Positions 2,550 to 12,961 of a DNA stretch of 35,072 nt are shown here, piece after piece. Below the pieces are notes generated by a model. That model was not told the origin of the DNA, did no database searches, and worked only from the letters and a program-made list of their open reading frames with translations. Position 1 is the first letter of the stretch; every line of letters starts with the position of its first letter. The stretch covers positions 1-35,072 of the forward strand of contig SBGP01000017.1 of assembly GCA_006226595.1 (NCBI GenBank). The letters are read 5' to 3'. Source of the stretch: Deltaproteobacteria bacterium. Its GTDB lineage: Bacteria > Myxococcota_A > UBA796 > GCA-2862545. A program made the translations under genes and the position numbers.

Positions 2550-3008
2550 CTACAGGCGGGTGAGCGCGTCGGCGGTCGCGGTGTCCGGCTTGCCGGCGAC
2601 GAGCTTGGCGACCACGTCGTAGCGCTCACCCTCGACCGGCCTCGGCACCAGGCTCTCGACCACCTCGCGCGGCACGATCAGCCGCAGGGGCGTGCTCGGC
2701 GCCGCCGACTCGTCCGCCGCGTCCCACTCCTCGACCTGGACCTCGAGGATCCAGTGGCCGCCGCGGTCGGGGAAGCGCTTGTTCGGCGGGCTCTCCCGCG
2801 CGGTGAGCACGGAACCGGTGCAGTGCACCCCCACCGGCTCGGAGCCGGGCTCGCCGGCCTCCCCAGCGGTCGCGGGGCTCTTGGACGGCGTGGAGGAGCT
2901 GCCACCCTCGGCGGGTGCCGGGCTGCGGGCCTCGGTGCCGCCTGGGGCGTCGCTGCCCGTGCAACCAGCGGAGAGGCTGCACAGCAGCCACAGAGCGGCC
3001 CACCTCAT
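2550..3008 (-). CDS. small lipoprotein, candidate immunity protein
   Basis: A 152-residue protein with a short hydrophobic leader and a lipobox ending Ser-Ala-Gly-Cys at residue 16, followed by a Ser/Pro/Glu-rich linker (to about residue 55) and a compact ~95-residue domain. It should be anchored in a membrane facing the periplasm. I do not recognise the domain. Its ATG overlaps the TGA of the upstream gene in an ATGA, so it is probably translated by coupling to the permuted papain-fold protein before it. That arrangement, a periplasmic lipoprotein directly after a possible peptidoglycan- or protein-cleaving enzyme, fits an immunity role, but this is inference. It could instead be an unrelated stress-envelope lipoprotein. 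Confidence 0.8.
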   Translation of the reverse strand: MRWAALWLLCSLSAGCTGSDAPGGTEARSPAPAEGGSSSTPSKSPATAGEAGEPGSEPVGVHCTGSVLTARESPPNKRFPDRGGHWILEVQVEEWDAADESAAPSTPLRLIVPREVVESLVPRPVEGERYDVVAKLVAGKPDTATADALTRL

Positions 3009-3856
3009 GTGCGCTTCACGTGCCCCGCGTCCTCACGCTGCTGGGTCGTCGGGTCGGCATCCGGGTTCTGGCCGGCCGTGTTCCCGTAGCGCTCCTCGTA
3101 CAGCGCATCGAAGTCGAGGCCATCGAGGTCGTCGACCATCGTGCCCTCGGTGCCGTTGGCCTGCTGCTTCTTGATGCCCTCGTACGCGGCGTTCGGCATG
3201 GCGATGCCCAGCGTGCTCATGCTCGGAGCCGACTTTCCGGCGGCCTCGACCGACTCCTTGGCGAAGGAGGTGCAGTTGTAGCCGTACACCGAGTACTTCG
3301 CGCCGCGCTTGGACTCGGCGTAGTCGATGACCTTGCCGACCTCTTCGTGGGTCAGGTCGTAGCTCTGCGAGGCCTTCTCGCGGCCCTGGTGCGAGGTGTC
3401 GGGCTGCTTGACCCGACCCGAGACGTAGGAGTTCAGTGGGTTGGTGCTGTAGCCCTCGTCGCCGGGCCAGAAGCCCATCGAGTCCGCGTACTTGCCGCCC
3501 TGACGCAGGTAGCCGGCGTGCTTGGGGTGGACCGTGTCGGGGATCTGCGACACGTCCGGGTACTCCAGTGCGATCCAGGTGTGGCCGACCGCGCCGCGCT
3601 CGAGGTTCTTCTTCGCCTCGCGCGGGTTCCACATGCTGATCTCCTGGGCCTCGAGGTCCACGTACACGTGGAGCTTCGCCGGCGTGCCAGCGGCCATGCC
3701 GAGGGCGCCATCCAGCCCGTTCTCGGGCGAGGTGGACAGGTCGGCCGCAGCGGCACCGTTGCCGCGCGCCTGTTCGAAGCGCTCGTCGGTGGTCGTGGAC
3801 GTCGTGGAAGCGGGGGAGGAGGTGTCGGCCTCTCTCCGGGTGCTCTGGGACGGCAT
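3005..3856 (-). CDS. permuted papain-fold (NlpC/P60- or LRAT-like) protein, candidate effector
   Basis: A 283-residue protein. I chose the ATG at 3856 because GGGAG lies 4 nt upstream; the frame stays open further upstream but reads as non-coding. The first ~58 residues are Ser/Thr/Ala-rich and have no signal peptide. Residues 60-210 carry the features of a circularly permuted papain fold: a His strand (Val-Gly-His92-Thr-Trp-Ile) precedes the nucleophile motif Tyr-Asn-Cys195-Thr-Ser-Phe-Ala at a helix start, the order found in LRAT and permuted NlpC/P60 enzymes. Between them is an aromatic, Gly-rich stretch. The tail is charged. Such enzymes are amidases, peptidases or acyltransferases. Coupling by ATGA to a lipoprotein and lack of a Sec signal suggest a toxin delivered by a contractile or other specialised system, but no such system is visible here. 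Confidence 0.75.
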   Translation of the reverse strand: MPSQSTRREADTSSPASTTSTTTDERFEQARGNGAAAADLSTSPENGLDGALGMAAGTPAKLHVYVDLEAQEISMWNPREAKKNLERGAVGHTWIALEYPDVSQIPDTVHPKHAGYLRQGGKYADSMGFWPGDEGYSTNPLNSYVSGRVKQPDTSHQGREKASQSYDLTHEEVGKVIDYAESKRGAKYSVYGYNCTSFAKESVEAAGKSAPSMSTLGIAMPNAAYEGIKKQQANGTEGTMVDDLDGLDFDALYEERYGNTAGQNPDADPTTQQREDAGHVKRT

Positions 3857-3910
3857 GGGGGCTCCCGATCGGGGTTGTGCGGACGCGGAGGAAGCGCGGC
3901 CGATAGCGAA

Positions 3911-3916
3911 AGCGTA
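3911..3916 (-). promoter_or_regulatory. -10-like element for effector gene
   Basis: On the minus strand GCTACGCT contains TACGCT, 54 nt upstream of the ATG at 3856. It matches the GC/GG-TAnnCT pattern seen before many genes here. No -35 is recognisable. Confidence 0.3.
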
Positions 3917-4094
3917 GCACCCCTCTCGTCGGAACGCTGGGGTTTGCCCTGCACAAACCGCAGTACCTGCTCGGACGGGCCCGCGTGGACGGCAGGATCG
4001 CGCGCAGAGGTGCCGGGACCCCGGCCCGCCGCCCGGATCCCCGAACGCTGCGGGCAACCGGTGAACGGCGGAGACCGAAGCCCCGGCACGAGAG

Positions 4095-4139
4095 GTCGCC
4101 GCTCGCCTCACCTCATGGGTGGTGAAGCGACGCGGCGAC
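4095..4139 (-). terminator. hairpin terminator downstream of EF-Tu gene
   Basis: A long imperfect hairpin begins 14 nt past the EF-Tu stop codon. The arms are 4095-4112 and 4121-4139: 17 base pairs with one bulged base (4131) and one C·A mismatch, closing an 8-nt loop. There is no U-tract, as is common in very GC-rich genomes. The rest of 3857-4153 holds no gene I can support. Confidence 0.55.
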
Positions 4140-4153
4140 GGTGTGAAGCGGTC

Positions 4154-5326
4154 CTACGCGACCTCCGTGACGACGCCGGCACCGATGGTGCGGCCGCCCT
4201 CGCGAAGCGCGAAGCGCACGCCGGGCTCGAGACCCACGGCCTTGCCGAGCTCGAAGCCGATCTCGGCGCGGTCACCGGGGTTGACGATGCCCTTGTCGCC
4301 CACGTCGAGGCTGCCGGTCACGCTGGTCGCTCCGAAGAAGAACTGCGGCATGTAGCCGCTGGCGAACGGCTTCTTCCGCCCGCCCTCCTCCTTCGAGAGC
4401 ACCACGATCTCGGCGCGACCCCGGCTACGCGCGGCAATCGAGCCGGGCGCGGCGATGAGCTGCCCACGCACGACCTCCTCGCGCTTCACCCCGCGGAGGA
4501 GCAGGCCGACGTTCATCCCGGCCCGAGCCACGTCCACATCCCTGTGGAAGGCCTGGGTTCCGGTGACGACGACCTCCCGCTCCCCGCCGAGGCCCACGAC
4601 CTCGATCTTGTCGCCGACCCGCAGCTCGCCCTGGTCCACGCGCCCGGTGACCACGGTCCCGCGACCGGCGATGGTGTGCACGTCCTCCACGGCCATGCGG
4701 AACGGGGAGGCGTAGTCACGCTCGGGGTCGGGGATGTGGGCGTCGAGCACGTCGACCAGCTCGCGGATGCAGGCGGTGGCGTCCCCGAGGGGCTCGCCGG
4801 CCTTGACCGCGTTCAGCGCGAGCAGCGCGGAGCCGTACACGAAGGGCACGTCGACGTAGCCGTGTCCGGCCAGCATCTCGGTGACCTCCAGCTCCACGAG
4901 CTCGAGCAGCTCGGCGTCCGCGAGGTCCGTCTTGTTGACGAAGACCACGAGGTGGTCCACGCCGACCTGACGGGCGAGCAGCACGTGCTCCATCGTCTGA
5001 CGCTGCGGGCCCTGGGAGCCGTCGACGAGCAGGATCGCGCCATCCATCTGGCTGGCGCCGGTGATCATGTTCTTGACGTAGTCCGCGTGCCCGGGACAGT
5101 CGATGTGCGCGTAGTCGCGCACCTCGGAGGCGTACTGCACGTGCGCGGTGTTGATGGTGATGCCGCGCTCGCGCTCCTCGGGGGCGTTGTCGATCTTGTC
5201 GAAGGCAATGGCCTGGCCGCCGACGCGGGCCGCCTGGACGGCGGTGAGCGCAGCGGTCAGGGTGGTCTTGCCGTGGTCGACGTGACCGATGGTGCCGACG
5301 TTGACGTGGATCTTCTCGATGGCCAT
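4154..5326 (-). CDS. tuf: elongation factor Tu, divergent
   Basis: A 390-residue translational GTPase that delivers aminoacyl-tRNA to the ribosome A site. The GTPase motifs are complete: P-loop GHVDHGKT (14-21), switch I RGIT (54-57), DCPGH (76-80, including the catalytic His), and NKTD (131-134). Domains II and III follow, with the [10 protein letters not shown] and REGGRT signatures, and length is close to the usual 393-396. The ATG at 5326 has a strong GAGGAGG site. It is unusually divergent: the N-terminus lacks the conserved segment before HVNVG, and many positions normally fixed in EF-Tu differ (for example [10 protein letters not shown] and the [11 protein letters not shown] strand). 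It also stands alone, without fusA, rpsL, secE or tRNA genes. It is either the only tuf in a divergent lineage or a second, specialised copy. Confidence 0.93.
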
Positions 5327-5340
5327 GGGGCCTCCTCGAA

Positions 5341-5436
5341 CCCGGCGGATGCCGGGCATGGGGCAGGTGGTGTCCCTGCCGGTGGAGGGACGCCAGACCA
5401 CCCGGCGTCCCGAGCCGCGGACACGACGGTCCGCGG
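5341..5436 (-). promoter_or_regulatory. structured EF-Tu leader with alternative hairpins
   Basis: Reading toward the tuf ATG (minus strand) there are successive stems: 5436-5415 (8 bp, 6-nt loop); 5411-5404 with 5394-5387 (8 bp, 9-nt loop); 5391-5386 with 5377-5372 (6 bp, 8-nt loop); and 5356-5341 (6 bp, 4-nt loop) just before the Shine-Dalgarno site. The second and third stems share bases 5387-5391, so they exclude each other, as in attenuators. All pairings are perfect complements read from the sequence; function is inferred. Confidence 0.5.
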
Positions 5437-5857: not shown

Positions 5858-5951
5858 CCATTCATTACGCATGCCATTCATGTTGCCCTTGTCCATGCCC
5901 CGGGGTACCCGTGCTCGTCGCGCCCACTGAAGGGTTCGACGCCATGAATGG
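5858..5951. promoter_or_regulatory. repeated CCATTCATG operator-like sites
   Basis: CCATTCAT (5858-5865) and CCATTCATG (5874-5882) are direct copies exactly 16 bp apart, and an inverted copy CATGAATGG lies at 5943-5951, touching the Shine-Dalgarno region of the peptide gene. They sit between divergent genes, so a regulator-binding role is plausible. Confidence 0.3.
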
Positions 5952-5959
5952 AGTTTGAG

Positions 5960-6286
5960 ATGAACCGACGGGAGTTTCTCGAGGTGCTCGGAGTGCTGGG
6001 CGTCTCGGGCGTCGCCGTGTCGGCGACGGGTACGGCCGCGGCCGCGAGCCTGAGCGACGCCACCCTGGCGCACGCCCAGAAGCTGATCGGTATCGACGAC
6101 GTCGACGCCGACGGGCTCGTGGTGAGCTGCAACCCGCTGTCCTGCGACATCAGCAAGTTTCCTCCGCGCTGCGACGTGATGACCTGCAAGGGCGTGACCT
6201 GCGACATCGAGGGCGATCTGCCCTGTCGCACCGTGACGACCAAGCCCAGTGACCCCACGCCGACACAGCCCATCAAGCGGCTGTGA
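5960..6286 (+). CDS. Cys-rich peptide with Tat-like leader, candidate radical-SAM substrate
   Basis: A 108-residue protein. I prefer the ATG at 5960 (GGAG 6 nt upstream) to the ATG at 5948. It begins MNRREFLEVLG, a twin-arginine-like n-region, followed by a hydrophobic stretch with Ala-rich cleavage site around residue 30. The mature part has a short helix-like segment and then six cysteines between about residues 54 and 89 with spacing C-x4-C-x8-C-x4-C-x4-C-x7-C, and a Thr/Pro-rich tail. The gene directly precedes a radical SAM/SPASM enzyme on the same strand, with a hairpin between them that could keep peptide expression above enzyme expression. I infer a secreted, post-translationally modified peptide (RiPP-like). 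A plain Tat-exported disulfide protein is the alternative. Confidence 0.75.
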   Translation: MNRREFLEVLGVLGVSGVAVSATGTAAAASLSDATLAHAQKLIGIDDVDADGLVVSCNPLSCDISKFPPRCDVMTCKGVTCDIEGDLPCRTVTTKPSDPTPTQPIKRL

Positions 6287-6292
6287 CGTCTC

Positions 6293-6324
6293 GTCGTCAC
6301 TGCGGGACCCCTCGCAGTGACGAC
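6293..6324 (+). terminator. perfect 12-bp hairpin between peptide and maturase genes
   Basis: GTCGTCACTGCG (6293-6304) and CGCAGTGACGAC (6313-6324) are exact inverted repeats; a further G-T and G-C pair leave a 4-nt loop. It begins 7 nt after the peptide stop codon. No T-run follows, so it may be a leaky terminator or an mRNA-stabilising 3' stem. Confidence 0.6.
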
Positions 6325-6346
6325 CTCCTCCCGTATTGAATAACGG

Positions 6347-7690
6347 ATGAATATCATGCATTTCGTGAAGCCCTCGCGCTACAACGTGCGCACGCCCAAG
6401 CTCGGAGCCGTGTACAACGCCTCCACCGGCAACTACGTCGTGCCCACCGCTGCCCAGCGTGAGCTGCTCGATGGCACCGGCGCCCAGCATCTCGCGGTGG
6501 ACGAGCACAGTCGTCCGCTGCTGGAGGGCGGCTTCCTGGTGCCCGAAGACCTCGACGAGCTCGCCTCGGTCCGTCTGGGCTTCGAGTACTCCCGGCGCGC
6601 GATTGCACCGCCACACCTGACCATCTCGCCGACCATCGACTGCAACTTCGGCTGCGAGTACTGCTTCGAGACCCACCAGCGCGGGAACATGATTCCGCCG
6701 ATCCAGGACGCGTTGCTCGCATTCACCGAGGACGTCTGCCTCGCCCGGTCCGGCCCGAAGCGGCTCTCGGTGTCGTGGTTCGGCGGCGAGCCACTGATGG
6801 CCATGCCCGTGATCCGCCGGCTCACCGCCGGCTTCCGCGCGCTGATCGAGCGCGGGGTGATGGAGGAGCTGAGCGCGTCCATCGTCACCAATGGGTACAT
6901 GGCGACCCCGCGCGTCGTCGACGAGCTGGCCGCCCTCGGCATCACACAGATGCAGATCACCGTCGACGGCGCCCGCGAGCTGCACGACCAGCGCCGCATC
7001 CTCAAGCGCAATGGCGCGCCCACCTTCGACCACATCCTCGGCAACATCGCCGCGGCTCGGGGAAAGGTCGACGTCCTGATCCGCATGAACGCCGACCGCA
7101 GCAACATCGAGACCGTGCCCGAGCTGATGGCCTCACTCGAAGAGCATGGCCTGCTGGAGTGGTGCCAGGTGCACATCGACCGCGTGAGCCCGTTCCGGCT
7201 CGAAGAAGTCGAGGACCCGGGTCAGATCCTCGGCGCCGACGAGTTCGCGCAGATCGAGCTCGCGCTGCTCGCTCGGGCCCGCGACGAGGGCTGGCCGCTG
7301 ACGATGAGCAATCCGCGTCCGGCGATCACCGGCGTGTGCCAGGTCGACCGCGTGAACTCCTTCGTCATCGCACCGAGCGGTCAGCTGATGAAGTGCTGGG
7401 CGGAGCTCGGCAACCGCCCGCACCAGGTCGGGCACCTCGCAGAGCCCAGCACCTGGCATGCGGGCGACGAGCTGACCGGTCTCGCGTCGCGCGACGTGTT
7501 CGACGACGCCGACTGTTGTGCATGTCCGGTGCTGCCGCTATGCATGGGCACCTGCCCGCTCCTTCGGCGAAACCGCCGCGGGCTCGGATTGAAGGAATGC
7601 CCCCCGTTCAAGCACACGCTGCCCATGCTGGTCGAGCACAAGCACGGGAGCGAGGCCCACTTCGAGAAGCGGACGGTGATCGATGGATAA
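6347..7690 (+). CDS. radical SAM/SPASM peptide-modifying enzyme
   Basis: A 447-residue enzyme. The radical SAM 4Fe-4S motif CxxxCxxC is at Cys99, Cys103, Cys106, with the SAM-binding GGEP at 146-149. The C-terminal SPASM domain is complete: C331-x13-G-x4-C350, then C390-x2-C393-x5-C399-x3-C403, and a final Cys418, enough for two auxiliary 4Fe-4S clusters. The N-terminal ~90 residues form the segment typical of peptide-maturase family members and end in a Gly-Phe-Leu-Val-Pro motif. Such enzymes install thioether, C-C or other radical-made bonds in ribosomal peptides. It is cytoplasmic and likely acts on the upstream Cys-rich peptide before Tat-type export. The next gene overlaps its end by 8 nt, so the two are probably cotranscribed. 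Confidence 0.93.
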   Translation: MNIMHFVKPSRYNVRTPKLGAVYNASTGNYVVPTAAQRELLDGTGAQHLAVDEHSRPLLEGGFLVPEDLDELASVRLGFEYSRRAIAPPHLTISPTIDCNFGCEYCFETHQRGNMIPPIQDALLAFTEDVCLARSGPKRLSVSWFGGEPLMAMPVIRRLTAGFRALIERGVMEELSASIVTNGYMATPRVVDELAALGITQMQITVDGARELHDQRRILKRNGAPTFDHILGNIAAARGKVDVLIRMNADRSNIETVPELMASLEEHGLLEWCQVHIDRVSPFRLEEVEDPGQILGADEFAQIELALLARARDEGWPLTMSNPRPAITGVCQVDRVNSFVIAPSGQLMKCWAELGNRPHQVGHLAEPSTWHAGDELTGLASRDVFDDADCCACPVLPLCMGTCPLLRRNRRGLGLKECPPFKHTLPMLVEHKHGSEAHFEKRTVIDG

Positions 7691-8309
7691 GCTGGCGATC
7701 GGTGTGCTCGCGGGTCTGGCCGGGCTCGGGCTCGGATGGATCGTGTTCGCACCGGCCCCCACCACCGCGGTGCCCACGGCGAGCGAGGCGGCCCCCGCGA
7801 AGACCGAGACGCGCGTGGTGACCGAGGACTGCGGCGCGCTCGAGGCCGAGCTGGCCGCGCTGAAGCGCACCTCCGCGTTTCAGGACGCGATGCTGTCGAT
7901 GGCGCGCACCCGCCTCGACGGCGTCGCGATGACCTGGCCCGACGCGGTACCCGCCGAACAGGAGCCGGACGAGGTGCTCGCTGCGCTGGAGGCTTCGGTG
8001 GAGGCCTGCGGACTGCCGCTCGACGTGATGACGGCGGAGTGCTCGGAGCCTCCGTGCATCCTCACCGCCGCCGACCACTCGGGCGGCACGGCCTACGGCT
8101 TCTCGGTGAGCTGTCCGACGTGGGCCGAGCGCTACCCGAGCACCCACGTGAGCGGCCAGGTCGTCGACTGTGGGGACCACGAGGAGCAGGTGCTGTTTGT
8201 CGCCGCGGGCTGGGAAGGCCTCGACGAGGGCGACCCGGAGAACCTGCAGCTTCGCCTCGCCGCCCGACAGCAGCAGCTGGTCGACGCATGGGTGTGCACG
8301 CCGCAGTGA
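7683..8309 (+). CDS. membrane-anchored protein of the radical-SAM cassette
   Basis: A 208-residue protein starting 8 nt inside the maturase gene. Residues 5-26 are one hydrophobic, Gly/Ala/Leu-rich helix, followed by an Ala/Thr/Pro linker, a short coiled-coil-like segment (EAELAALKR) and a periplasmic domain with seven cysteines and a C-terminal helix. I do not recognise the fold. The overlap indicates translational coupling with the maturase, so it may help export, process or display the modified peptide; this is inference from context only. A strong hairpin follows, ending the transcription unit. Confidence 0.8.
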   Translation: MDKLAIGVLAGLAGLGLGWIVFAPAPTTAVPTASEAAPAKTETRVVTEDCGALEAELAALKRTSAFQDAMLSMARTRLDGVAMTWPDAVPAEQEPDEVLAALEASVEACGLPLDVMTAECSEPPCILTAADHSGGTAYGFSVSCPTWAERYPSTHVSGQVVDCGDHEEQVLFVAAGWEGLDEGDPENLQLRLAARQQQLVDAWVCTPQ

Positions 8310-9273: not shown

Positions 9274-12018
9274 CTAGCGCGCGTTCTCGGCCTCCCACGC
9301 GGCGCGATTCGGACCGGTGACGACGCCGTATTTGGCGAGCGCCTGGGCGAGCGGCATCTCGTCGCCCGCAATCGGCCACTGCTCCTGGTACAGCGCGACG
9401 TAGGGCGCCGCATCCTCGGGAGCGCCGCGCTCGAAGGCGGCGAGCGCGAGCTGACCGGCCGCGAAGGCCCGAGGACGCACCACCTGACCGTCGCACTCCT
9501 CCATGTCCATCACGTCTCCCCACTCCTGGAGGGCACGCTCTCGGTCCCCAGAATGGTGGTACGCGGCGGCGTACCGGAGTTTCAGCCAGCAGCGCTGGGC
9601 GGCGAGTCGGTCCTCGGCGGCCAGATCGCGCCACGCCTCCTCGAGCCCGGCGTACTCCTTGTCGGCGAACGCGATGAGGGGCTCGGGATCCCCCTCCATG
9701 GTCGCGAACAGCGCCAAGATCAGAGGATGATCCCAGCGGACGTCCGGCCCGGGAGGGACTGCCCCCTCGGTGGTGACCAGCTGAACCGCCTCCACGATCG
9801 TCCGGGTCAGCTCACAGTTCGTGACGACCGGGCGGTTGTGAGGGGGACTGCAGCCCTTCTTGAAGTAGCCGATCATGCGCTCCCGCTGCTCCGGACCCGC
9901 GTAGCCTGGCCACGACCAGAGCCGGACAAAGAGGCTCCTCTGCAGTAGGGCCCGAGCCGGCCACTCCTCGGACTCGACGGCGTCGAGCAACAGGCCGGGA
10001 CGTCCCGCGATCACCATGTAGGGCACGAGCTCGTCCAGCGACTCCGAGCGGGTCTCGGCCGGCCACTCGCGGGCGAGCACCAGCGGAAGGTGTGCCTGCA
10101 CCGCTGCCTCGTCTCCTGCGAGGAAGGCGGCCTGGGCCGCCTTGCGCCGAAGATCCAGACGGGTGGGCTCGCGCTCTAGCGCCTCGGCGAACAGCGCCAC
10201 CGCCCCGGCATGGTCCTCACGCCGAGCCAGGATCTCCGCCTCGAGCCCGATCAACGACCCCGACGTCGGTGCGACCTCGCGCGCCTTCGAGACCCGTGCC
10301 TGCGCCTCGTCGAGTTCGCCCATCAACAGCAGGCGGTCGACCACCTCGCGGACGGGCCACAGGGCGGACACCTCGGGATTGGCGGCGTCGAGGTACGGGG
10401 TCCACTTCCACGGGTCCATCAGCTCGATGGAGCCGAGACAGATGGCCGAGAGCAGATCGTCGGGATGGTCCTCCAACCAGGCCTGCATGTCGGCGACGTA
10501 CTCGGCCAAACGCGCCTGGTTCGCCTGCTGCCAATCCTCGGAGTTCGGATCTACGTGCGCCCAGCCGGTCAGCTGGTACTCGATGCCGCGGACGCAGATG
10601 GCGGCTCCGCGATTCTCCGCCTTCTCCACCAGCGGCACTCGCCCGACCAGGTCGATGTACGGAGCGGGGTCGCGCACGTCGCCGGCGAGCATCAACGAGA
10701 GCGCAGCGAGATCGACGGACGCGGACTTCGCCTCGAGGAGCGGCTCCAGCTCGAGACGCGCCTCCCGCACGTCATCGCGCAGTGCGGCCTCCCACGCCCG
10801 GCGAAGCTGCGCTTGCTGTCCCTCGTCCGTGAACAGCTCGGGCGCGCCCCGCACCGTGAACAGCGGCGGGCCCGTCTGGGCGGGACGAAACCACAGGCCT
10901 GCCGCGACGACGGCCACCACCACGAGGAGGAGCGCAGGAAGGCCCCATCGCGGCCGGCCGGCTTCCGTCTGCGGCGTCGCCTCGACACCCGCGGTCCCGG
11001 GTGCGTCCAGGCTCGCCGAGTCCCGTGCCCCCGAGTGCGCGGCGGTCTTCGCCGGCGGATCGACGGTCCCGGAGACCGACGCAGGCGCCTCCAGCGAGTA
11101 GGTCTGCGGGGTGAAGGCCCCCGGCTCCGGCGGCGACGAGGAAGCGCTCACCAGCGCATCGCCGGCCCACATCCGCGCCGACAGCGACGGCGCGCCTTCC
11201 AGCCACGCCGCCTCCATCGCCCCGGCGTCCGCGAACCGCGACGCCGAATCCGTCGACAGCGCCCGCTGGATCACCGCGTCCAGCCGCGGGTCCACACCGG
11301 CCACCCGCTCCGCCAGCGGCACGTAGCGACCGCGCACGATGGCCTCGAACGTGTCGAAGGCATCGTCCCCGTCGAAGGCGCGCACGCCACACAGCAGCTC
11401 GTACGCAATGGCGCCGAGCGCGAACACGTCCGCTCGCGCGTCCACCTTGCCCGCGTCGCGGATCTGCTCTGGCGCCATGTACGCGGGGGTGCCCATCAGC
11501 GCGCCCGTGCGCGTCGCAGCCTCCCCACCGCCCGCGAGCTGCTTCACCAGCCCGAAGTCCGCGACCCGCGGCACCGGTCGCGACCGCTGCGCAGCGAGCA
11601 GGATGTTGCCCGGCTTCAGGTCCCGGTGCACGAAGCCCTGATCGTGCGCCGCCGCCACCCCCGCGAGGATCCCCCGCATCAGGTCGTCCGCCTGCTCAGC
11701 CGTCAGCCTTCGCCGCTTGAGCACGTGGGCCAGGTCCGGGCCGTCGATGTACTCCATCACCAGCGCAGCGAGCCCGTCGATCTCGATGACGTCCACGACC
11801 GAGACGATGTTCGTGTGGCGGAGCGATGCCTGCGCCCGACCCTCGCGCAGCAAGCGGTCGCGCTGCTCGAGACTCGCACTGCTCAGCACCTTCAGCGCCA
11901 GCGGCGTGCCCAGCTGCGCGTGGCGAACGCGGTACACCGACGCCATGCCGCCCTGGCCGAGCAGTGCCTCGACCTGGTAGCGGCCCCCTCCGACGTCGGT
12001 TCCCGGCTCCAGCTGCAT
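9274..12018 (-). CDS. transmembrane Ser/Thr protein kinase with TPR-like C-terminal region
   Basis: A 914-residue Hanks-type kinase. The catalytic domain (13-275) has the glycine loop GQGGMASVY (21-29), Lys43, HRDLKPGN (131-138), DFG (154-156) and APE (182-184), so it should be active. A Pro/Ala/Ser linker leads to one transmembrane helix (358-377). The extracytoplasmic half is Ala/Leu/Glu-rich helical repeat sequence, TPR-like by pattern. I chose the ATG at 12018 because the kinase fold starts directly after it and a longer frame would overlap the divergent channel gene. It is a close paralogue of the protein at 27438-30107: domains, helix position and the C-terminal YGVVTGP-RAAWEAE ending match. 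It has no clear Shine-Dalgarno site but an AGAAT element just upstream. Confidence 0.95.
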   Translation of the reverse strand: MQLEPGTDVGGGRYQVEALLGQGGMASVYRVRHAQLGTPLALKVLSSASLEQRDRLLREGRAQASLRHTNIVSVVDVIEIDGLAALVMEYIDGPDLAHVLKRRRLTAEQADDLMRGILAGVAAAHDQGFVHRDLKPGNILLAAQRSRPVPRVADFGLVKQLAGGGEAATRTGALMGTPAYMAPEQIRDAGKVDARADVFALGAIAYELLCGVRAFDGDDAFDTFEAIVRGRYVPLAERVAGVDPRLDAVIQRALSTDSASRFADAGAMEAAWLEGAPSLSARMWAGDALVSASSSPPEPGAFTPQTYSLEAPASVSGTVDPPAKTAAHSGARDSASLDAPGTAGVEATPQTEAGRPRWGLPALLLVVVAVVAAGLWFRPAQTGPPLFTVRGAPELFTDEGQQAQLRRAWEAALRDDVREARLELEPLLEAKSASVDLAALSLMLAGDVRDPAPYIDLVGRVPLVEKAENRGAAICVRGIEYQLTGWAHVDPNSEDWQQANQARLAEYVADMQAWLEDHPDDLLSAICLGSIELMDPWKWTPYLDAANPEVSALWPVREVVDRLLLMGELDEAQARVSKAREVAPTSGSLIGLEAEILARREDHAGAVALFAEALEREPTRLDLRRKAAQAAFLAGDEAAVQAHLPLVLAREWPAETRSESLDELVPYMVIAGRPGLLLDAVESEEWPARALLQRSLFVRLWSWPGYAGPEQRERMIGYFKKGCSPPHNRPVVTNCELTRTIVEAVQLVTTEGAVPPGPDVRWDHPLILALFATMEGDPEPLIAFADKEYAGLEEAWRDLAAEDRLAAQRCWLKLRYAAAYHHSGDRERALQEWGDVMDMEECDGQVVRPRAFAAGQLALAAFERGAPEDAAPYVALYQEQWPIAGDEMPLAQALAKYGVVTGPNRAAWEAENAR

Positions 12019-12023
12019 GCCCC

Positions 12024-12029
12024 ATTCTG
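12024..12029 (-). promoter_or_regulatory. AGAAT -10-like element adjoining kinase start
   Basis: Minus-strand CAGAAT ends 5 nt before the kinase ATG. The same element is found before the two other kinase starts that are complete in the window. At this distance transcription would begin at or near the ATG. Confidence 0.4.
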
Positions 12030-12085
12030 CCAGGCGTGGGCGTCCAGGTGTGCCGTCCGCGCGCGCGGTCGTGGTATGCCGCGGC

Positions 12086-12961
12086 ATGGCCACTCCGATC
12101 CAGCCCACGTCCCTGTCCGAAGAGTTCGAGGTCGTCGGGCTCCCGAAGACGCCGTTCGCGGACGCCTACCACCTGTTCCTGCGCGTGCCGCTGTGGCAGT
12201 CGATCGCGATGATCGTGCTCGCCTACCTCGCGCTCAACGGGGTGTTCGCGGTGCTGTTCTGGCTGACCGGAGGCCTGGCGAACAGCGAGGGCACGCTGCT
12301 CGAGGCGTTCTTCTTCAGCGTCCAGACCATGGGCACCATCGGCTACGGCTCGATGTACCCGACCTCCACCCTCGCGAACGCGCTGGTCACGGGCGAAGCG
12401 GTGATCGGCATGCTGGTGACCGCCATCTCCACCGGCCTCGTGTTCGCGAAGATCTCCCAGCCGGGCGCGCGCATCGCGTTCTCGGACAAGGCGTCGCTGG
12501 GCCCGATGGACGGCATCCCCACCCTGCAGTTCCGCATCGGCAACGAGCGCGGCAACATCGTGATGAACACGCAGCTCACCGTGGCCTTCGTGCGCACCGA
12601 GACCACCGCCGAGGGCATGACCTTCTACCGGATGCACGAGCTGCCGCTGGTCCGGCAGCGGGCGCCCACCCTGACCCGTACGTGGACGGTGATGCACCGC
12701 ATCACTCCGGACAGTCCTCTGTGGGGCGCGACGCCGGAGTCCCTCATCGCCGAGGAGGCCGAGCTGATGGTCACCGTCGTGGGGACGGACGACACGACGC
12801 TCCAGCCCGTGTTCGCCGGCGCGCGCTACCGCGCCCAGGAGATCGCCTTCGGGATGCGGCCCGCCGACGTGATCACCGAGCTCCCCGACGGAAGGGTGCG
12901 CATCGACCTCGGACGATTCCACCACGTGACCCCGGTGGGCGAGGTGTCCTGGCAGGCCTAG
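12086..12961 (+). CDS. inward-rectifier potassium channel, KirBac type
   Basis: A 291-residue ion channel. Two transmembrane helices (about 38-60 and 96-121) flank a pore helix and the K+ selectivity filter TIGYGS (84-89). The N-terminal slide-helix region and the ~165-residue C-terminal immunoglobulin-like cytoplasmic domain, including the LQFRIGNERGN strand, are typical of the Kir/IRK family. It should form a tetrameric K+ channel in the inner membrane. The ATG at 12086 is chosen because it begins at the Kir N-terminus; the longer frame upstream overlaps the divergent kinase. TATGCC lies 5 nt before the ATG and no Shine-Dalgarno site is evident, so this gene too may be read from a nearly leaderless message. 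It is divergent from the kinase with 67 bp between. Confidence 0.95.
   Translation: MATPIQPTSLSEEFEVVGLPKTPFADAYHLFLRVPLWQSIAMIVLAYLALNGVFAVLFWLTGGLANSEGTLLEAFFFSVQTMGTIGYGSMYPTSTLANALVTGEAVIGMLVTAISTGLVFAKISQPGARIAFSDKASLGPMDGIPTLQFRIGNERGNIVMNTQLTVAFVRTETTAEGMTFYRMHELPLVRQRAPTLTRTWTVMHRITPDSPLWGATPESLIAEEAELMVTVVGTDDTTLQPVFAGARYRAQEIAFGMRPADVITELPDGRVRIDLGRFHHVTPVGEVSWQA

Follow-up and report, generated by a model that had tools for sequence, protein, structure and literature searches.

What kind of system is encoded where a small cysteine-rich peptide gene lies directly before a radical SAM/SPASM enzyme gene, and by which route could its product leave the cell? The window considered here is the whole stretch of 35,072 nucleotides, in which a first-pass annotation had described a 108-residue, six-Cys peptide with a twin-arginine-like N-terminus, a complete radical SAM/SPASM enzyme and a membrane-anchored protein whose gene overlaps that of the enzyme by 8 nt (7683-7690). 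All of these features were confirmed (Table 1). We consider it reasonably probable that the first two genes constitute a two-gene RiPP-type unit, composed of a precursor and its maturase, in which the peptide would be cross-linked by thioethers and, in the lineage of the window, exported by the Tat pathway.

Table 1. Features of the peptide-enzyme locus in the window and of the compared loci
Feature	Position	Strand	Basis or remark
Likely ribosome-binding site, GGAG	5950-5953	+	Sequence reading; 6 nt before the peptide ATG
Cys-rich precursor peptide, 108 aa	5960-6286	+	ATG at 5960, stop at 6284-6286; alignment, codon GC
Tat-type signal, residues 1-29 (NRREFLEV, hydrophobic region, GTAAAA)	5960-6046	+	Cleavage position assigned by eye
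Candidate maturase-recognition leader SLSDATLAHAQKLI, residues 30-43	6047-6088	+	Resembles the L012 leader SASHGTQEHARRLV
Core, six Cys in 33 residues	6119-6226	+	Possibly two three-Cys modules, VVSCNPLSCDISKFPPRC and VMTCKGVTCDIEGDLPC
Hairpin between the peptide and enzyme genes, stem of 14 bp, T tail absent	about 6293-6324	+	-29.7 kcal/mol, z -5.7
Radical SAM/SPASM peptide maturase, 447 aa	6347-7690	+	Pfam, NCBIfam, cluster Cys, tree, structure matches
Membrane-anchored protein of the class-wide DCxExPC family, 208 aa	7683-8309	+	Neighbour; link to the peptide putative
Other loci of the DCxExPC family	L049 5648-8479; L052 7784-9113; L055 5972-7251; L036; L038; L044		
Large CefA-like Cys-every-fifth repeat proteins	L005 37-1422; L006 60-1388; L016 1888-3927		Other domains before the repeat tail

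The peptide and the adjacent enzyme

The GC content of the peptide ORF by codon position (0.62/0.51/0.89) supports its being coding. Its six cysteines are found at residues 57, 62, 71, 76, 81 and 89, with a spacing of 5, 9, 5, 5 and 8, and their concentration in such a short core could allow several cross-links. The core possibly consists of two copies of a three-Cys module: a DNA repeat is present within it (6118-6151 against 6175-6208, 76%), and the self-alignment of the protein gave a p value of 0.015, or 0.05 when the cysteines were held fixed. No terminator was found by a search at the hairpin that separates the peptide and enzyme genes and, as the T tail is absent, an attenuator or an mRNA stabiliser between precursor and maturase is a possible role, likelier than that of a terminator. 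The hairpin sequence has no second copy within the window.

The enzyme passes the cut-offs of the general domain models, with 55.8 bits for Pfam Radical_SAM (cut-off 29.5) and 42 bits for the NCBIfam SPASM domain (cut-off 27). The CxxxCxxC motif is formed by C99, C103 and C106, and the SPASM cysteines are C331, C350, C390, C393, C399, C403 and C418, spaced as C-x13-G-x4-C and C-x2-C-x5-C-x3-C-x14-C. Pfam gave no match to an RRE domain in the enzyme; a beta-beta-beta-alpha-alpha-alpha order at its N-terminus, seen only in a low-confidence part of the structural model (block pLDDT about 20-60), does no more than suggest one. Elsewhere in the window, three further genes were observed: a stand-alone GTPase that resembles EF-Tu, appears divergent and contains all three of its Pfam domains (4154-5401, minus strand), an inward-rectifier potassium channel homologue (12017-12961, plus strand; IRK_C, 71.5 bits) and a 368-aa ORF whose coding statistics are good and which matches nothing in Pfam (3005-4111, minus strand).

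Relatives of the peptide-enzyme pair

Two close relatives of the enzyme were obtained from other genomes, L012 from a contig scan and L024 from a search among the relatives of L012. The window enzyme is 41% identical to the first and 42% to the second, which share 54.6% with each other, and in a tree of 19 related enzymes the three form one clade with a support of 100/100. All ten cluster cysteines are invariant among them. Each of the two relatives is preceded by a related Cys-rich peptide, in agreement with the pairing of peptide and dedicated maturase proposed by the first-pass annotation, and we therefore regard the pair as real. At L012, a peptide of 76 aa, or of 98 aa when counted from a GTG further upstream, abuts the enzyme start and has five cysteines from the internal ATG, whereas at L024 a 95-aa peptide with seven cysteines ends 15 nt before it; the corresponding gaps are thus 60 nt in the window, 0 at L012 and 15 at L024, and the adjacency is kept in all three clade members.

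Homology between the L012 and L024 peptides is clear (shuffle z 13.5). The window peptide aligns with that of L012 at a shuffle p of 0.0025, or 0.007 with the Cys positions held fixed, and weakly with that of L024 (p 0.11). The best-matched non-Cys element of the peptides is the leader segment, for which the window and L012 sequences taken alone gave a p value of 0.0035; its L024 counterpart, EATAFHAAQLM, is a weaker match (p 0.04). The pair at L024 stands alone, with the end of a helicase-like gene on one side and, on the other, an S4-domain gene followed by TerB-like, ferredoxin-like and CarD-like genes (names given by eye). Since these flanks hold only that pair, peptide and enzyme look like a unit, which suggests that they move as one.

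Neither a close enzyme relative nor the peptide was found in the 57 other genomes of the set of relatives, one of them of the same genus, and the phylum-level set yielded enzyme matches of about 30% identity only. Searches of 385, 71 and 398 genomes revealed no further member at the clade level; over about 1,600 genome searches, the large ones scoring a few candidates per genome, together with the contig scan, viral contigs and plasmids, L012 and L024 were the only clade-level members recovered. The peptide and the third gene gave nothing by tblastn in plasmids. The enzyme family is therefore very rare in the genomes searched, a missed member being possible, and in these genomes neither a maturase of the clade lacking the peptide nor the peptide family lacking a radical SAM neighbour, either of which would have told against the pairing, was encountered. 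We read the pair as a RiPP precursor/maturase family that is new and very rare, and one of whose members is probably exported by Tat.

Likely chemistry and known maturases

All three clade enzymes score far below the NCBIfam family cut-offs, and membership in a known NCBIfam maturase family was rejected on this ground. The nearest model overall is TIGR04463 (219.7 bits for the window, 222.9 for L012 and 243.1 for L024; cut-off 525), followed by the Clo7bot maturase TIGR04334 (194.9 bits for the window enzyme; cut-off 600), and CefB gave 156.8 bits (cut-off 600); lower scores were obtained with PapB (74 bits; cut-off 340), the SCIFF maturase model ScfB, TIGR03974 (57.2 bits; cut-off 425), and QhpD (52 bits; cut-off 453). 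The TIGR04463, Clo7bot and CefA-CefB systems resemble the window in enzyme layout and in having a Cys-rich precursor adjoining the maturase, and they supplied the best-scoring models, but the distance to their cut-offs sets the window enzyme apart. The Clo7bot peptide models gave no match, and the cysteines of the window peptide do not recur at every fifth residue as in CefA, whose precursor differs by carrying such a repeat tail on a larger protein. Cys-every-fifth repeat proteins adjoin the more distant enzyme relatives at L005, L006 and L016, that of L016 being annotated as CefA. The gene order of the window recurs at L003, where a 39-aa Cys-rich peptide ORF (1302-1421), MTMKSLIKKPAAAACCVPAQTKVAQCCAKVSKNVAGCHD, closely precedes another radical SAM/SPASM enzyme.

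Among solved structures, the closest in both sequence and fold is CteB (5wgg/5why), the fold model being confident in the barrel only (mean pLDDT 57). The SCIFF/ranthipeptide systems to which it belongs (CteB, ScfB; PapB-freyrasin) also share with the window six cysteines in a short core and a C-terminal SPASM domain. They differ in that the window enzyme falls far under the SCIFF and PapB cut-offs, and the window peptide, which did not match the SCIFF peptide model, and its relatives have no conserved acceptor pattern. SCIFF and PapB precursors are not known to carry Tat signals. CteB forms a Cys-Thr S-C-gamma thioether and PapB forms Cys-Asp/Glu thioethers (PMC11002830).

The enzyme probably cross-links the Cys-rich peptide. 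Its N-terminal domain would bind a short helical leader around SLSDATLAHAQKLI, and the radical SAM cluster, together with the auxiliary SPASM clusters, could then cross-link several of the six core cysteines. By analogy, thioethers from cysteine to nearby residues are the most likely chemistry, because CteB is the closest structure and the closest models are those of Cys-rich-peptide maturases. The acceptor residues are not conserved among the three peptides and no thioether partner can therefore be named. This variation, together with scores under every NCBIfam cut-off that recall the likewise weak-scoring cyclophane-forming SPASM enzymes YhhB, AmcB and GrrM, leaves about one chance in four to the same precursor-maturase pair yielding a non-thioether product, such as a C-C cyclophane or an epimerised peptide, whose cysteines, once exported, would pair as disulfides or bind metal. 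Against such a product, the top-scoring families mature Cys-rich peptides, the best solved match makes Cys thioethers and what the cores conserve is mainly cysteine, and we retain thioether cross-linking as the preferred reading.

The third gene and the twin-arginine N-terminus

The first-pass annotation had placed the third gene in a three-gene cassette, where its product would anchor or process the peptide. The protein has seven cysteines and, at residues 4-22 of its N-terminus, a single hydrophobic segment (mean Kyte-Doolittle 2.2). Because its gene lies on the same strand as that of the enzyme and overlaps it by 8 nt, their translation is probably coupled, and this speaks for a dedicated cassette whose third product would anchor the peptide, process it or confer immunity to it. 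However, relatives of the third gene occur in 14 of the 71 class genomes, a count that includes the genome of the window; they are found in tandem arrays, with four matches in a row at L049, and some appear by eye to be fused to anti-sigma- or FecR-type regulator-like proteins. Most share the motif D-C-x-E-x-P-C, of which C, P and C are invariant in ten sequences. Pfam and a family-profile comparison with solved structures gave nothing convincing for this family, and the predicted structure of the window protein (pLDDT 39) is unusable. With a profile that would miss some radical SAM enzymes, no relative of the window enzyme was detected near the third-gene relatives in the eight stretches tested, several of them short contigs, and the family is absent beside the L012 and L024 pairs. 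The cassette was accordingly rejected as a unit, and a dedicated role of the third gene toward the peptide is improbable.

We thus return to the two-gene unit and to its possible export. The window peptide begins with MNRREFLEVLGVLGVSGVAVSATGTAAAA, which contains the RRxFL twin-arginine motif, and its N-terminus as a whole, NRREFLEVLGVLGVSGVAVSATGTAAAA, combines this motif with a hydrophobic stretch and a site at which cleavage is plausible. All the sequence features of a Tat substrate are present, namely NRREFLEVLG, a hydrophobic 15-mer with a mean Kyte-Doolittle value of 2.1, and GTAAAA, and TatC is encoded in the genome of the window. Against the Tat models in NCBIfam and Pfam the peptide stayed under the curated cut-offs, TIGR02811 (formate_TAT) giving a weak match (E 0.0011) and TIGR01409 giving 11.1 bits against a cut-off of 16.7. 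No signal peptide was found in the L012 and L024 peptides from their ATG starts, nor did a signal-like N-terminus appear when, as judged by eye, their frames were extended upstream to the previous stop. The Tat leader is therefore restricted to one of the three family members, and the export route advanced by the first-pass annotation is supported at the level of sequence for the window peptide, by its leader and by the encoded TatC, and fails as a property of the system; Tat as a general trait of the family was rejected. The same relatives, and the curated models that were not passed, would suit a Sec signal or a mere RiPP leader with a chance hydrophobic stretch, a reading made unlikely by the textbook NRREFLxxLG from residue 2, the hydrophobic region and small residues before the plausible cleavage site, the weak TIGR02811 and TIGR01409 matches and the presence of TatC. 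A further reading, which would make the peptide an ordinary Cys protein exported by Tat and give the enzyme some unrelated substrate, is very unlikely: although only the window peptide has the Tat leader and its link to the enzyme is read from sequence, a Cys-rich peptide lies directly upstream of the enzyme in every clade member and these peptides are related.

The window peptide is thus probably Tat-exported, which would be an uncommon way out for a modified peptide of this type. Since both relatives lack a signal peptide, Tat targeting looks like a lineage-specific addition before an ordinary leader, and a comparison of the three sequences makes the window peptide look bipartite, a Tat signal being followed by a leader and core of the normal type. 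The lineage of the window would have acquired a twin-arginine signal ahead of the maturase-recognition leader, and the modified, compact peptide would leave through the housekeeping Tat translocase toward the periplasm, where signal peptidase could trim it; a dedicated transporter would not be needed. Among the window ORFs tested with Pfam, neither a protease nor an ABC transporter was found, in agreement with the lack of an ABC exporter reported initially. Substrates of the Tat pathway are folded proteins. It is conceivable, and we propose it only tentatively, that the peptide, carrying both Tat signal and leader, leaves by Tat solely after its cysteines are cross-linked, the translocase proofreading the product and replacing an ABC exporter. 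As candidate roles, the product may be a periplasmic metal or redox peptide, or a secreted bioactive compound.

The best functional analogue is QhpD-QhpC, in which a radical SAM/SPASM enzyme introduces thioethers into a small protein while it is still cytoplasmic; the protein then reaches the periplasm, its leader being removed by QhpE before it exits through the ABC exporter QhpF (PMC7876137). The window differs by its Tat signal and by having no QhpE- or QhpF-type genes among the ORFs tested. General export signals are also used by the periplasmic bufferins and by DybA-type RiPP-lipoproteins (PMC12538549, PMC12636315), which likewise carry an N-terminal export signal on a Cys-containing precursor modified in the cytoplasm, but depend on MNIO enzymes and on Sec or lipoprotein signals, in contrast to the radical SAM enzyme and Tat signal of the window. 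Tat export of lanthipeptides for phage display has been raised as a possibility only (PMC5686179), and no radical SAM RiPP bearing a Tat signal was found in the literature covered, an absence that is weak as evidence.

The export step of RiPPs is poorly generalised. As leaders with and without a Tat signal occur among the relatives of this maturase, the effect of the added signal on both modification and export is directly testable. If a Tat substrate is indeed cross-linked by a radical SAM enzyme, the system would test cross-linking as a folding check.
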